Positions 55,557 through 61,450 of a DNA stretch of 64,000 nucleotides are shown in pieces. A program made the translations under genes and the position numbers. Within the stretch, counting starts at the first letter, position 1, and every line of letters starts with the position of its first letter. The stretch spans positions 372,001-436,000 of the forward strand of contig NZ_MASR01000001.1 in NCBI RefSeq assembly GCF_001758195.1, given 5' to 3'. The notes under the pieces were generated by a model that was given only the letters and a program-made list of their open reading frames with translations, had not been told where the DNA came from and ran no database searches. Origin of the DNA: Pseudohongiella acticola (GTDB taxonomy: Bacteria > Pseudomonadota > Gammaproteobacteria > Pseudomonadales > Pseudohongiellaceae).

Positions 55557-57641
55557 TTATAAAATGCGCATGCCCGGCTGTGCACCCTGGTCGGGGCTGA
55601 GCAGCCAGATATCCGAGCCGCCCGGACCTGCAGCCAGCACCATGCCCTGTGACAGACCAAACTTCATTTTGCGCGGTTTTAGATTGGCAACCACCACCGT
55701 CAGTCGGCCTTTTAGGTCGTCCGGCTTGTAGGCTGAGCGGATACCAGAGAACACATTAAGCTGGAACGGCTCACCATCCGCTCCCAACCCAAGGTCCAGG
55801 GTGAGTTGCAGGAGTTTGTCGGCACCTTCCACATAAGCGGCATCGGCGATCAGCGCAACGCGCAGGTCAACTTTGATGAAGTCGGGGAATTCGATTTCGT
55901 CGGCGATGGGGTCTTTGCTGACAGGGCTCTCTATGAGCTCAGGGCTGTTAATCGGCTCAGGGCTGCCTTTCGTTGCAGAGCTGCCCGCAGCCTGACTGGC
56001 TTCGGCCTGGCTCGCTGACAGCAGCGCTTCAACACTGGCCGGTTCAACACGCGTCATCATCGGCGCAAACGCATTGATGTTGTGGCCCAGTAGCAGGCTG
56101 TCAACGTCTGACCAGCCCAGGGCATCAACATTGAGGAAATTTTCTGCTTTTATTGCCATCGCCGGTAACACTGGCTTCAGGAATATCATCAACAGACGGA
56201 ATATATTGATGCCGGTGCTGCAGATTGCCTGCACTGCGGGATCCTGAGGATTCTGTTTGGCCAACGTCCACGGTTGCTGCTCGGCGATGTACTGATTGCC
56301 TTTGTCGGCCAGCGCCATGATCTGCCGTACGGCCTTGCTGTATTCGCGCTGTTCGAAGGCACTGGCGATGTCACTGGCAGCCGCCTGACATTCGGCCAGC
56401 AAAGCCGGGTTGGAGGGTTGCGCTGCCAGCTGGCCATCAAACCCACGCACAATAAAGCCGGCGCAACGGCTGGCGATGTTCACCACCTTGCCCACTAGAT
56501 CAGCATTAACCTTCTGACTGAATTCTTCAAAGCTCAAATCAAGGTCGTCCACACCCGCGCCCAGGCGCGACGCCAGGAAATAACGCAGGTACTCCGGGTT
56601 CAGGTGTTCCAGATAGGTGCCGGCATTAATGAAGGTACCGCGCGATTTCGACATTTTTTTGCCATTGACGGTCATGAAACCATGAGCGAACACAGCCGAA
56701 GGTGTGCGGTAACCTGCGTCGCTGAGCATCGCTGGCCAGAACAAGGCATGAAAATTGATAATATCCTTGCCAATAAAGTGATACAGCTCAGTGTCGCTGC
56801 CCGGCTTCCAGTAATCGTCAAACTTGTAGTCACTGCGATCGCAGAGGTTCTGGAAACTGGCCATGTAGCCAATGGGCGCGTCCAGCCAGACATAAAAGTA
56901 CTTGCCTGGCGCGTCCGGAATCTCGAATCCGAAATACGGCGCATCACGGCTGATATCCCATTCCTGCAGGCCTGAATCCAGCCATTCGCTGAGCTTGTTA
57001 GCCACCTGTGCCTGCAGCGCACCGCTGCGCGTCCAGGTCTTGAGCATGTCGGTGAATTCCGGCAAGCGGAAAAAATAGTGCTCCGACTCACGCTCTACCG
57101 GTGTCGCACCCGACAGCGTGGAGTACGGGTCAACCAGTTCAGCCGGTACATAAGTGGCACCACAGGCTTCACAGTTATCGCCATACTGGTCCTGCGTTCG
57201 GCACTTGGGACACGTGCCTTTGACAAAACGATCCGCCAGAAACAGTTCTTTTTCGGGATCAAACAGCTGCTTGATGGTGCGAGCTGCTATCCGGTCGTTG
57301 GCCCGCAGAGCCTTATAGATGGACTCGGAGTATTGTCGATTTTCTGGCGAATGCGTCGAATGATAGTTATCAAAGCCGATCAGGAAACCGTCATAATCGG
57401 CCCGGTGTTCGGCACGGACCCGGTCAATCAGCTGCTCTGGGGTGATGCCCTCATTTTCTGCCCGCAACATAATCGCCGTGCCGTGCGCGTCATCGGCGCA
57501 GACATAAACACAGTCTTCGCCGCGCATTTTCTGGAATCGCACCCAGATGTCGGTCTGCACGGCTTCGAGCACGTGGCCGAGATGGATGGGGCCATTGGCA
57601 TAAGGCAAGGCGCTGGTGACCAGAATTCTACGTTTTGACAC
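55557..57641 (-). CDS. metG: Methionyl-tRNA synthetase
   Basis: Class I synthetase for initiator and elongator tRNA-Met. The 694-residue product has HLGH in [12 protein letters not shown], the zinc knuckle [23 protein letters not shown] in GKKMSKSRG, and a C-terminal tRNA-binding EMAP/Arc1p domain (about 590-694) joined by a Ser/Ala/Pro-rich linker. The start is GTG with AAGGA eight bases upstream. Confidence 0.97.
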
Positions 57642-57667: not shown

Positions 57668-57703
57668 GGGCTGTTTTTTTGCTCAGGGCTGTTTATTTGC
57701 TCA
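57668..57703. repeat. 18-bp tandem duplication at the rubredoxin end
   Basis: GGGCTGTTTTTTTGCTCA at 57668-57685 is repeated with one change at 57686-57703. The second copy ends on the rubredoxin stop codon. It lies between rubredoxin and metG and is probably a replication-slippage duplication. Confidence 0.8.
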
Positions 57704-57868
57704 GGGCAGCTCAATCATTTCGAAATCTTCTTTGCCGACGCCACATTCCGGGCACATCCAGTCCTCTGGCACATCCTCCCAGGTCGTGCCTGGCGCGATG
57801 CCATCGTCGGGCCAACCTTCCGCTTCGTCATAAATCAGTCCACACACAATACACTGCCATTTTTTCAT
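57701..57868 (-). CDS. Rubredoxin
   Basis: One-iron electron carrier of 55 residues, easily missed by length cut-offs. The iron ligands are Cys6 and Cys9 (CIVCG) and Cys39 and Cys42 (CPECGVGK), with the conserved GLIYDEAEG and [12 protein letters not shown] between them. ATG at 57868. It sits 60 bases upstream of the metG start and is divergent from the rnf-like operon, so it is a possible electron partner for it, though alkane hydroxylase or superoxide reductase partners are the better-known ones and none is in the window. Confidence 0.93.
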
Positions 57869-58020
57869 GTTGCCGCGCCACTCGGGTTAAATGCAGGTCA
57901 AAGATGACCCTCGTCGGTTATCGGGGTGCAGATGATACTTGATCAGAGCCGTTATGGGCAAAAGCACTGTCCGTGCTAGACTGTGTGCTTCCCCTGCAAC
58001 ATGGTTTGAACGGCCTGCGC

Positions 58021-58620
58021 GTGATAGATTTCTATGTGGTACTGGTAACAATCGCACTGATTAACTGCCTGAGTCTCAGCCGGATAACGGGGCCTGCCTC
58101 GTGGTTCGCTGCTGCCAGAACGCCCGGCATAGCGATCCTGTTCACCTTTTGCATGATCACCCTGTTGTTTGCCACGGCCCTGTTCACGGCCGCTGTTCTG
58201 ACTGTCGCGTCGCTAACGACTGAGTTTGTTGCCGCTCCCTGGCTGATTCTGATACTCAACGCCGGCGGCGCCGGCCTTTTACTGCTGCCACTGTCAGCCT
58301 GGCTGCACCGCCGTCATACCCTGACTTCACAGCGTCTGCGTTGGCTGCTGCCCGTTGCTGCGCTGGAAGTGACGCTACTGACCACGCTGCTGATACTGGC
58401 TCAATCAGGCCCCGCAACCAGTGAGGCGTTCCTGGCCGTATTGCTGTGGTCTGTGCTGGCCTGCGCCGGCATCGCTGTATTGATGCTCACCTATGCCGGT
58501 CTTCGCGCGCGGCTCAGCGTTGTCGACGCACCGCTGGCCTGGCGCGGCCTGCCTCTGGAACTGGTGATGATCGGCGTGTTTGCACTGGCATTGCTTGCCC
58601 CACTGAGGGCACTGTCATGA
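58021..58620 (+). CDS. Degenerate RnfA-like membrane protein
   Basis: Membrane protein of 199 residues with six predicted helices. The start ([14 protein letters not shown]) aligns with the TDYLLLFVGTVLVNN start of RnfA, and the end [16 protein letters not shown] aligns with IRERLAVADVPAPFRG. The two cysteines that hold the membrane [2Fe-2S] cluster with RnfE (in GLCPF and TTNCAVLG of RnfA) are absent at the matching places (ITGPAS and [10 protein letters not shown]). GTG at 58021 is chosen by alignment; a GTG at 57973 would add 16 residues; neither has a strong ribosome site. Followed by rnfB with an ATGA overlap. Confidence 0.75.
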
Positions 58621-59177
58621 TTCTGACTGCTCTGCTCATTGTTGCGGCCAGTGTTGCAGTACTTGCGCTGCTTTGCCTGATGCTGCGTAAACATCTCTCT
58701 AATACGCCCGAGGCATCAGGTCTTCAACAGGAACAGGTGGAACGTATCAATGCCCTGCTGCCGCAGACACAGTGTGGTCAGTGCGGTTTCCCGGGTTGCC
58801 GGCCCTACGCAGAAGCCATGGCCACCGGCGTCGCCATCAACCGCTGCCCACCCGGCGGCGCGCAAACCATCTACCGGCTGGCAACGTTGCTTGAACGTCC
58901 GGAGGTGCCACTGGACCCACGCCACGGCGTTGAATCCGCGCGCAAGATTGCGTTCATCCGTGAGGCCGAGTGCATTGGCTGTACCAAATGCATACAGGCG
59001 TGTCCGGTCGATGCCATCCTGGGCGCTCCCAAACGCATGCACACAGTCATTGCACGTGACTGTACCGGCTGTGACCTGTGCGTGGACCCCTGCCCGGTCG
59101 ATTGCATTGACATGCTGCCTGCCGTCAACCTGGGCAACGTATCCGAGCAGTCAGGTGTCACTGGGAGGCCGGCATGA
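58617..59177 (+). CDS. rnfB: Electron transport complex protein RnfB
   Basis: Ferredoxin-type subunit of the Rnf complex. The 186-residue product has an N-terminal membrane helix, the Fe-S domain with [16 protein letters not shown], and two [4Fe-4S] motifs [12 protein letters not shown] and [12 protein letters not shown]. All ligand cysteines are present, so this is the one apparently intact Rnf subunit of the operon. The ATG at 58617 overlaps the previous stop. The C-terminus is short. Confidence 0.95.
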
Positions 59178-59782
59178 CAGCGCATATCCATGACTGCATT
59201 CGTTGCGATTACTGCAGCGATGTCTGCCCCGAACAGTTACAGCCACAGCAGCTCTATACCTTCAGCCGGTTTCTGCAACATGAACAGGCGCTGCAATTTG
59301 ATTTACTGCAATGCACTGAGTGTGGTGCCTGCGAGTCTGTGTGCCCGAGCCGGCTGCCGCTACTGGCCTATTTCCGCGAAGAAAAACTCGCCCTGCACGA
59401 CCTGGAACAATCAGATGCGGAAGCCGCGCACTGGCAGACCCGCTTCGAACGCCATCAGGCGCGCGGCCAGCGCGATGCCATCGCACAGCAGGAGCGCAAA
59501 CTGCAGAAGTTGCAGGCCAAAACAGAAGCCCTGGCGGCAGGTGAATCAATCTCAAGACAGGTATCGGACACTCGAGTCGATGACAATGCCGACGCAACGC
59601 CAGTAGCCGCCAAAACACCGGCCCAGATTCAGGCAGACATTGCCGCCGCAGTAGCGCGCACACGGGCCCGCAAGGCCGCACTGCAACAGGAAAACAGCAA
59701 CCAGCAAAGCGCTGCAGCAGACAATAACAATTCGCAGGATGCCAGCTCGCCTGATGCTACGTCGCGGAAAACCGATTCATGA
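59174..59782 (+). CDS. RnfC-like protein reduced to its ferredoxin part
   Basis: Protein of 202 residues that matches only the C-terminal part of RnfC. Two [4Fe-4S] motifs, [12 protein letters not shown] and [12 protein letters not shown], start at residue 8 and are followed by the RnfC-type Glu/Ala/Lys/Gln-rich coiled tail. The N-terminal part that binds NADH and FMN in RnfC (over 350 residues) is missing, and the ATG overlaps the rnfB stop (ATGA), so it is not an artefact of a bad start choice. It may take electrons from a different donor. Confidence 0.82.
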
Positions 59783-60627
59783 CAAACGCAGCCAATACAC
59801 CGTCTTTACCGTCTTTGCCCAAGCGCCGGGTGACCACACCCGGCATCATGCTGACTGTGCTGATCGCATTGTTGCCAGCGATTGCTGTCAGAGCATGGTT
59901 TGCCGGTCACGCCTGGTTATTGATGCTGCTCGCCAGTTGCCTTGTTGCCATACTGCTGGAAACACTGGTGCTGCGTTTACGTGGCCGCCCTGTCAGTCTT
60001 GCGCGACTGGATGGCAGCGTTCTGATCACTGCGGTGTTATTGCTGCTGGTACTGCCGGCAGCAACGCCCTGGTGGCTGGCAGTCACTGGCACCGGCTTTG
60101 CCGTCATTGTCGGCAAACACATGTTTGGCGGTCTCGGCCAGAACATTTTTAATCCGGTGTTGGTCGGCTATCTGGGACTGCTGGCGCTATTTCCGATGCA
60201 CCTGACGTCACCGGCAGCAATGACCCTGGCAGGCAATCAGTCACTGGCAACGGTGTCGCTGTCACTGGCAATCATGGCAGGCGGACTGTTGCTGTTGGGA
60301 CGCCGTATCATCAGCTGGCATATTCCTCTGGCCGTGCTGCTGACAACCGGCCTCGTGTTTTATGTGTTTACCCCGGCGTTGAACAGTTACCTTGCACTGC
60401 TCCTTGTGTTTTTTATCGCGACCGAACCGGTCACCTCACCGGGCACACGGCGTGGCAAACTGGTGTACGGCGCTTTGATTGGACTAATGAGCACCGCCCT
60501 GACGATCTGGCTGCCCTATTCTGTGGCCATCGCTGCCACCGTTCTGGCCGCCAATGCTGTCACGCCCACACTTGACCAACTGATCAGGCATGATCGCAAA
60601 CGCCACCAACCGCAGGAAGGAGTGTGA
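59779..60627 (+). CDS. Shortened RnfD-like membrane protein
   Basis: Membrane protein of 282 residues (RnfD is about 350). Parts align well: FAVIVGKHMFGGLGQNIFNPVLVGY and VFFIATEPVTSPGTRRGKLVYGALIG, both RnfD hallmarks. The middle region that carries the covalently bound FMN in RnfD (SGAT-type motif) is replaced by a shorter hydrophobic stretch, and no SGAT is found. Overlaps the neighbours by four bases on both sides. Confidence 0.8.
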   Translation: MTNAANTPSLPSLPKRRVTTPGIMLTVLIALLPAIAVRAWFAGHAWLLMLLASCLVAILLETLVLRLRGRPVSLARLDGSVLITAVLLLLVLPAATPWWLAVTGTGFAVIVGKHMFGGLGQNIFNPVLVGYLGLLALFPMHLTSPAAMTLAGNQSLATVSLSLAIMAGGLLLLGRRIISWHIPLAVLLTTGLVFYVFTPALNSYLALLLVFFIATEPVTSPGTRRGKLVYGALIGLMSTALTIWLPYSVAIAATVLAANAVTPTLDQLIRHDRKRHQPQEGV

Positions 60628-60629
60628 CT

Positions 60630-60815
60630 GTGACAATGCTCACCGAGCTGTTAAGCCTATGGCTGCCTTTCGCTTTTCTGGCATCAGGCGTGATTCTAGC
60701 CACTTTCCAGTATTTTGGCAGGCGCCATGGCACTTTATTAGAACCGTCAAAACCTTCAGAACAGACAGAAGTTGATCCCGACATACGGGTACGAGTGACT
60801 GGCCGCATCTCATGA
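60630..60815 (+). CDS. Small membrane protein of the rnf-like operon, 61 residues
   Basis: Not recognised. One transmembrane helix (about 10-28, LWLPFAFLASGVILATF) is followed by a polar tail. AAGGAG at 60617-60622 is seven bases before the GTG at 60630; a GTG at 60624 and ATG at 60636 are alternatives. It sits where rnfG and rnfE are found in other gammaproteobacteria, and overlaps nth by four bases. Confidence 0.6.
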   Translation: MTMLTELLSLWLPFAFLASGVILATFQYFGRRHGTLLEPSKPSEQTEVDPDIRVRVTGRIS

Positions 60816-61450
60816 ACAAACTCAAACGGCAGCAGATATTTCAGCGCCTGCAGGCGGAAAACCCCAATCCCACAACTGAGCTGGAATACAATTCTACCTT
60901 CGAGCTGTTGATCGCCGTCATTCTGTCAGCACAGGCCACGGACGTCGGCGTCAATAAAGCCACACGAAAACTGTATCCGGTTGCCAATACGCCAGAGGCG
61001 ATGCTGGCTCTGGGCGTGGACGGTCTTAAGTCTTACATAAAAACCATTGGCCTGTTCAATACCAAAGCCGAGAATGTCATCAAAACCTGCGCTGCGCTGG
61101 TGGAACAACATGACTCAGTGGTACCCAATACGCGTGAGGCGCTGGAGGCCTTGCCTGGCGTCGGCCGCAAGACCGCCAATGTCGTACTCAATACCGCATT
61201 CGGACAGGCAGCCATGGCAGTTGATACCCATATCTTCAGGGTATCCAACCGCACCGGCATTGCCCCCGGCAAAAACGTACTGGAAGTGGAAAAACGACTG
61301 ATGCGCCTGGTGCCTGCAGAATACCTGCTGAATGCACATCATTGGCTGATACTTCACGGGCGTTATATCTGTATTGCACGCAAGCCGCGTTGCGCAGCTT
61401 GCGTGATCTACGATTTATGCGAGTTCCGACAGAAAACGCCTGTCGATTAA
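60812..61450 (+). CDS. nth: Endonuclease III
   Basis: DNA glycosylase/AP lyase for oxidised pyrimidines. The 212-residue product has the helix-hairpin-helix LPGVGRKTANVV with catalytic Lys120, Asp138 in AVDTHIFRV, and the C-terminal [4Fe-4S] loop of four cysteines in CIARKPRCAACVIYDLC. rnf and nth are adjacent in many gammaproteobacteria. Confidence 0.97.
   Translation: MNKLKRQQIFQRLQAENPNPTTELEYNSTFELLIAVILSAQATDVGVNKATRKLYPVANTPEAMLALGVDGLKSYIKTIGLFNTKAENVIKTCAALVEQHDSVVPNTREALEALPGVGRKTANVVLNTAFGQAAMAVDTHIFRVSNRTGIAPGKNVLEVEKRLMRLVPAEYLLNAHHWLILHGRYICIARKPRCAACVIYDLCEFRQKTPVD

Follow-up and report, generated by a model that had tools for sequence, protein, structure and literature searches.

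What can an Rnf complex still do once several of its redox sites are gone? The question is raised by an operon of Pseudohongiella acticola in which relatives of rnfA, rnfB, rnfC, rnfD and rnfE, most of them shortened or diverged, are followed by nth (Table 1). It lies in a stretch of 64,000 nucleotides (the window; contig NZ_MASR01000001.1, positions 372,001 to 436,000, or G000:C1:372001-436000 in the notation used here) of a 3.6 Mb genome in 8 contigs. Throughout, G numbers denote genomes, L numbers loci, and g1 to g8 genera. The cofactor sites that the encoded proteins retain are all cytoplasmic, and those that have been lost belong to the transmembrane, periplasmic and NAD steps of Rnf. This division on balance favors the view that the operon encodes a non-pumping, cytoplasm-facing iron-sulfur (Fe-S) relay, anchored in the membrane on a vestigial Rnf base and incapable of NAD reduction.

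Redox Sites of the Reduced Operon

A sequence-only reading of the window had described a reduced rnf-like operon and proposed looking for the same gene set in relatives. The same set of six genes, identically ordered, is found in three other species of the genus (G003, G011 and G013, which with G000 make up the four reduced species), and so the operon is not a chance reading.

Cofactor columns were assigned with the A. woodii Rnf residues as reference, mapped by alignment and counting. In the accessible part of PMC11889175, the [2Fe-2S] cysteines of A. woodii are given as C25 and C113 of RnfA and C25 and C108 of RnfE. The diverged RnfA of the window (RnfA′) bears Ala and Val at the RnfA positions; among the reduced species, the protein of G013 has a Cys at the second position and the other three have neither. 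The RnfE region that bears the remaining ligands is missing from the window set, which has no full-length RnfE. The threonine of RnfD that carries covalent flavin mononucleotide (FMN) aligns with a gap, a deleted loop, in 4/4 reduced RnfD proteins. RnfC starts at its ferredoxin domain, with a match to the RnfC model limited to positions 360-432 of 435, and the NADH/FMN domain of RnfC was not found in the window genome; the sole other RnfC-model match there scores below the cut-off (38.5 bits) and falls within the nqr cluster, in an open reading frame (ORF) that we take to be NqrA-like. The genome has no RnfG match at E <= 0.001, in agreement with the earlier statement that rnfG is gone.

All 4Fe-4S ligand cysteines of RnfB and of the RnfC piece are present across the four reduced species. 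In the shortened RnfD (RnfD-short), the riboflavin residues, equivalent to N123 and D249 of A. woodii as counted along the alignment, are kept as Asn in all four species and as Asp in three of them, with Glu in the window copy. The predicted RnfD-short model has a predicted local distance difference test (pLDDT) score of 84.4 and a structure match to RnfD (E 6.7e-12). The compact ferredoxin-to-membrane device that the sequence-only reading had envisaged fits this set of predicted cofactor sites.

Compared with the RnfABCDGE and RsxABCDGE systems, the window set is alike in gene order, position before nth, RnfB, the RnfC ferredoxin domain and the RnfD fold. It differs in lacking RnfG, the [2Fe-2S] ligands of RnfA and RnfE, the RnfC NADH/FMN domain and the RnfD FMN loop, and in having an RnfE cut to one helix and a tail.

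Table 1. Features at the operon site of the window, and displaced rnfG genes of three congeners
Feature	Position	Strand	Remarks
metG	55557..57641	-	conserved left flank of the site; source of the congener tree
rubredoxin	57701..57868	-	diverges from the operon; passes NF045768
RnfA′ (199 aa, GTG start 58021)	58021..58620	+	diverged RnfA, both [2Fe-2S] cysteines gone
RnfB (186 aa)	58617..59177	+	N-terminal hydrophobic helix and 4Fe-4S ligand cysteines kept
RnfC C-terminal part	59174..59782	+	two 4Fe-4S motifs (8 Cys) and helical tail; without NADH/FMN domain
RnfD-short (282 aa)	59779..60627	+	FMN-threonine loop deleted; riboflavin-site residues N125, E216
RnfE tail (61 aa; 63 aa from 60624)	60630..60815	+	last membrane helix and conserved RVRVTG tail of RnfE
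nth, endonuclease III	60812..61450	+	last gene of the operon; passes TIGR01083
displaced rnfG	L280:5592-6245		Ser at FMN Thr
displaced rnfG	L281:6775-7416		Ser at FMN Thr
displaced rnfG	L282:14853-15494		Ser at FMN Thr

The gene order, coordinates and clean frames first reported for the operon stand, and RnfB, RnfD, nth and rubredoxin pass their family models (RnfB with 225 bits against a TIGR01944 cut-off of 68.7; RnfD with a PF03116 match of 201 bits). The RnfC piece matches positions 366-542 of PRK05035 at 126.9 bits, below the model cut-off of 345 as expected of a fragment. RnfA′ is a weak RnfA match (TIGR01943, 23.3 bits against a cut-off of 229.3) with no Pfam match in the family scan; its start is placed at 58021 and not at 57973, because the first residues of its relatives align from residue 19-20 of the longer ORF. 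The six genes between rubredoxin and the end of nth overlap or nearly do so. Four-base overlaps had been claimed throughout, and ATGA overlaps exist at the A′/B, B/C, C/D and E-tail/nth junctions; at the D/E-tail junction, a GTGA overlap arises only with the 63-codon start, and the 61-codon GTG start leaves a 2-base gap. The name metG was given from the look of the protein rather than by a family scan and is presumptive; the names nqrA, sthA, gpsA and apbE, used below, are likewise assumed from the look of the proteins.

A Remnant of RnfE before nth

The small gene before nth matches no family model in the scan, and had been described as encoding a new membrane protein in an operon from which rnfE was gone. 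Neither description holds. The place between rnfD and nth is taken in six congeners by a full-length RnfE (234-244 aa, or 253 aa in G010 if taken from the first start) that ends in RVRVTGRI, and the window protein has the C-terminus DPDIRVRVTGRIS. A four-species profile of the small protein aligns to the RnfE end with an hhalign probability of 95.6 (E 1.2e-8). By this homology, the 61-residue protein represents the final helix of RnfE together with its tail. The tail motif is not merely the start site of nth, since L093, with its rnfE and nth 48 bases apart, retains it as well.

Constraint on the Remaining Genes

All genes are open in the four reduced sets, and the ratio of nonsynonymous to synonymous change (dN/dS) is below 1 in every pair with a value (two rubredoxin pairs are without one), as expected under the purifying selection for which the sequence-only reading had suggested looking. 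By the Nei-Gojobori method (NG86), dN/dS among the reduced four is 0.31-0.45 for RnfA′, 0.11-0.17 for RnfB, 0.09-0.15 for the RnfC piece, 0.22-0.39 for RnfD-short and 0.09-0.63 for the RnfE tail. The corresponding ranges in four congeners with a long A-B-C-D-E set, for pairs with a value, are 0.10-0.17 (RnfA), 0.07-0.20 (RnfB), 0.09-0.14 (whole RnfC), 0.06-0.08 (RnfD) and 0.19-0.43 (whole RnfE). Set against the long-set values, constraint on RnfA′ and RnfD has weakened three- to five-fold, that on RnfB and the RnfC piece is undiminished, and RnfE was already fast. As estimated from these sequences, RnfA′ and RnfD are relaxed, not neutral.

In two non-overlapping pairs, all five rnf genes show the most change at third codon positions (p 8.6e-18 to 0.011, crude chi-square), and the excess holds for the RnfE tail without its last 14 codons. 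Among 2000 simulated neutral copies, 29 of RnfA′, 3 of RnfD, 10 of RnfC and 297 of the RnfE tail were open at distance 0.4, and 3, 0, 1 and 138, respectively, at distance 0.8; the open frame of the RnfE tail alone therefore tells little. The earlier view, as far as it concerns working, remodelled genes rather than plain decay, is supported by the third-position excess and by the dN/dS values below 1, and is weakened by the relaxation of RnfA′ and RnfD.

Three States of the Site in Pseudohongiella

Across 15 genomes of the genus, four carry the reduced set, six the A-B-C-D-E set (split over two contigs in G010) and five a lone RnfB between rubredoxin and nth, RnfB being present at the site in 15/15. 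The assignment of these last five as rnf-less was rejected, lone RnfB being present there. The metG tree unites the reduced four in one clade (100/100) and the six A-B-C-D-E species in a second (97/97). Elsewhere in the family, an RnfD match at E <= 1e-15 occurs in 71/137 genomes, and among the matches listed, near-complete coverage of the short RnfD is confined to the reduced four. When the four RnfD-short proteins were used to scan the collection, one reduced set was found among the best 80 loci, NZ_DRFV01000015.1 of Pseudohongiella sp. HyVt-330, the same record as G013; as it covers these 80 loci and may omit the genome of the window, the scan is no proof of absence elsewhere.

The lone RnfB proteins (L184, L186, L187, L189 and L190) have no membrane helix and end in an RnfC-type helical tail, whose homology to the tail of RnfC has a probability of 99.2 (E 2e-19). 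Their dN/dS is 0.07-0.15. The metG tree groups one of these species, G014, with the A-B-C-D-E species (100/99) and sets the other four apart (84/90); the RnfB core tree, on few columns, unites all five (100/91). Their form may have arisen through two fusions, through transfer or by convergence. Lone and window forms share an RnfB core and an RnfC-type tail retained next to nth, whereas in the window form RnfB has a membrane helix, a gene of its own encodes the RnfC piece with its ferredoxin domain, and membrane subunits remain. A class-wide search with the lone RnfB matched 164/185 genomes; among 30 loci kept, which were chosen by similarity and so give no rate, 9 show RnfB with neither rnfA nor rnfC in the stretch, 8 of these with an nth match. 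PRK06991 and PRK08764, both of which appear in the family scan, presumably describe this form.

The six A-B-C-D-E congeners resemble the window set in having no canonical [2Fe-2S] cysteines in RnfA and RnfE and in their site before nth, as does the sister genus g4; they differ in full-length RnfC, RnfD and RnfE, and in an rnfG located elsewhere in the genome (6/6 congeners, 32/41 g4 genomes with RnfD). Loss of rnfG from these congeners and from most of g4 was rejected, the gene being missing only from the nth operon. Genomes with an RnfG match comprise 6/6 A-B-C-D-E congeners, 0/9 of the rest of the genus and 36 from g4. In three congeners whose locus was inspected, the displaced RnfG (213-217 aa) lies between a sthA-like gene and gpsA, downstream of nqr-apbE; no rnfG is found at this sthA-like/gpsA site in the window genome (L060) or in G013 (L283). 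The FMN threonine of RnfG is replaced by Ser in 19/19 motifs found among 30 loci, 11 loci giving no motif.

In answer to the question whether a full rnf set lies elsewhere in the window genome, the profile search found none over cut-off, with no second rnfB or rnfC; a second RnfB-model match, below the cut-off at 39.6 bits, is confined to the ferredoxin part of that model. PF02508 occurs in two proteins only, both in the nqr cluster, and FMN_bind has three matches, one of them belonging to the nqr cluster and the others to frames of 658-686 aa. By these searches, the genome holds no other rnf set, only Nqr.

Possible Function of the Reduced Complex

In the relay envisaged here, RnfA′, RnfD-short and the RnfE helix would serve mainly as a membrane base. 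Electrons would pass from a soluble low-potential donor to the RnfB and RnfC clusters, and would leave either to a cytosolic client or via the RnfD riboflavin to quinone. Its main task is presumably what RnfB with an RnfC-type tail does alone in five congeners. A more specific proposal, and a tentative one, is a minimal non-pumping complex made from the cytoplasmic half of Rnf, in which RnfB and the RnfC ferredoxin are wired to riboflavin in an FMN-free RnfD and pass low-potential electrons to quinone or Fe-S clients, on a base of RnfA′ and a single RnfE helix. Several observations weigh against a functional relay. The synonymous distance is near saturation in many pairs, and slow decay could be under way in the relaxed membrane genes. 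RnfA′ keeps 21/86 columns conserved in >=70% of 22 other RnfA rows, and its predicted model (pLDDT 68.7) is only moderately confident: the five best structure matches are RnfA and NqrE, the best with E 0.036. Moreover, the riboflavin Asp is replaced by Glu in the window genome itself.

It is doubtful that the complex is a non-pumping ferredoxin:quinone oxidoreductase, in which a soluble donor would feed RnfB, the RnfC clusters, the RnfD-short riboflavin and finally the quinone pool: Asn in 4/4 and Asp in 3/4 reduced RnfD proteins are in its favor, as are the location of the Rnf riboflavin between the RnfD FMN and the RnfC clusters (in the accessible part of PMC11889175) and the reduction of ubiquinone by NqrB, a homolog of RnfD (as far as PMC4014512 is available), but RnfD-short is relaxed and the window copy carries Glu. 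Slow decay would leave RnfB and the RnfC piece as the sole parts of importance, with the membrane genes as relics of a passage toward the lone-RnfB state; it would explain the relaxation of RnfA′ and RnfD relative to the long-set congeners and the few conserved columns of RnfA′. It is nevertheless judged improbable, since the frames are open in all four species, third positions are in excess in RnfA′, RnfD and the RnfE tail, very few neutral copies of RnfA′, RnfD or RnfC stay open at distance 0.4, and the metG tree keeps the reduced clade apart from the lone-RnfB species.

Two further explanations carry little weight. The ATGA overlap between the RnfE tail and nth might suggest that the upstream frames are retained solely for translational coupling to nth, but the constraint at the amino-acid level and the tail motif kept in L093 despite its 48-base spacing make this highly improbable. 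Descent from a common operon with Rsx, which reduces SoxR in E. coli (according to the part of PMC12174285 that is accessible), raises the idea of a SoxR-reducing system. SoxR exceeds its cut-off (116.9 bits) in 5/15 genomes of the genus and in 0/4 reduced ones, where the best scores are 60.4 (G000), 53.4, 50.9 and 42.4 bits, and RseC is found in 0/15, its positive control being found in E. coli. Such a system is scarcely credible here, and SoxR is, from these profiles, an unlikely client of the reduced set. A special link to the diverging rubredoxin, also suggested earlier, was rejected, the gene being at the site throughout the genus (15/15 genomes), irrespective of rnf state.

Mutation is the usual way to study Rnf modules. 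In A. woodii, as stated in the accessible part of PMC11889175, activity and growth are abolished when the RnfA/RnfE cluster, the RnfG FMN or the RnfD riboflavin is removed. Three selected states occur within one genus (A-B-C-D-E with displaced rnfG, the reduced set, and RnfB with an RnfC-type tail), so that the role of the Fe-S part becomes testable apart from pumping. The reduced set would be a natural test of what the Fe-S relay does alone, and it bears on why RnfB so often remains beside nth. A literature search, outside whose coverage most subscription papers fall, found no paper combining Pseudohongiella and Rnf and, among the matches listed, no title on a reduced Rnf.

Rnf Operons without Canonical [2Fe-2S] Cysteines

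The long sets of Pseudohongiella and g4 that lack the canonical cysteines present a second puzzle of a like kind. Counted over nth-linked operons, both RnfA cysteines are absent from 36/36 g4, 9/10 g1 (the tenth keeps one of two) and 1/1 g6 rows, and present in 3/3 g2, 5/5 g3 and 3/9 g8 rows (one of the nine without data). RnfE lacks both in 6/6 g1 rows and in the 37/37 g4 rows with data; in a 38th g4 row the first is absent and the second position is without data. Ser occupies both RnfA positions in 35/36 g4 rows. A Cys two positions before the lost one occurs in 36 of those 37 g4 RnfE rows and not in g1 rows; this residue might be a shifted ligand, which counts against a cluster-free g4 complex. 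Examples of A-B-C-D-E operons without the canonical cysteines are L056, L057, L061, L062 and L244, with L085 and L091 among the g4 loci, and in Pseudohongiella the subunits of such operons stay constrained.

Among the 41 g4 genomes with RnfD, 32 have an RnfG match and nine have none (G024, G092, G114, G115, G132, G142, G145, G154 and the single-contig G157). Four others of this genus (G083, G095, G140 and G143) carry RnfG-like remnants with in-frame stops and have no RnfD match, an apparent decay of the set.

In a different arrangement, a single protein joins RnfB to the ferredoxin domain and tail of RnfC, with rnfG kept (L078, L079, L086, L201, L204, L205, L206, L207, L196 and L197); among the proteins read there are 3 such fusions in g2, 5 in g3 and 2 in g8. 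Like the window set, these keep the RnfC ferredoxin part with its tail, and the stretches that carry them yielded no RnfC NADH/FMN domain. They differ in the fused RnfB, in having RnfG in the operon and in retaining the RnfA and RnfE cysteines, except for one RnfA cysteine in one g8 genome. Finally, G093 and G096 have a second type of rnf cluster (L212 and L214), in whose stretches nth was not found; its order is C-D-G-E-A, and its RnfA and RnfE cysteines are intact.

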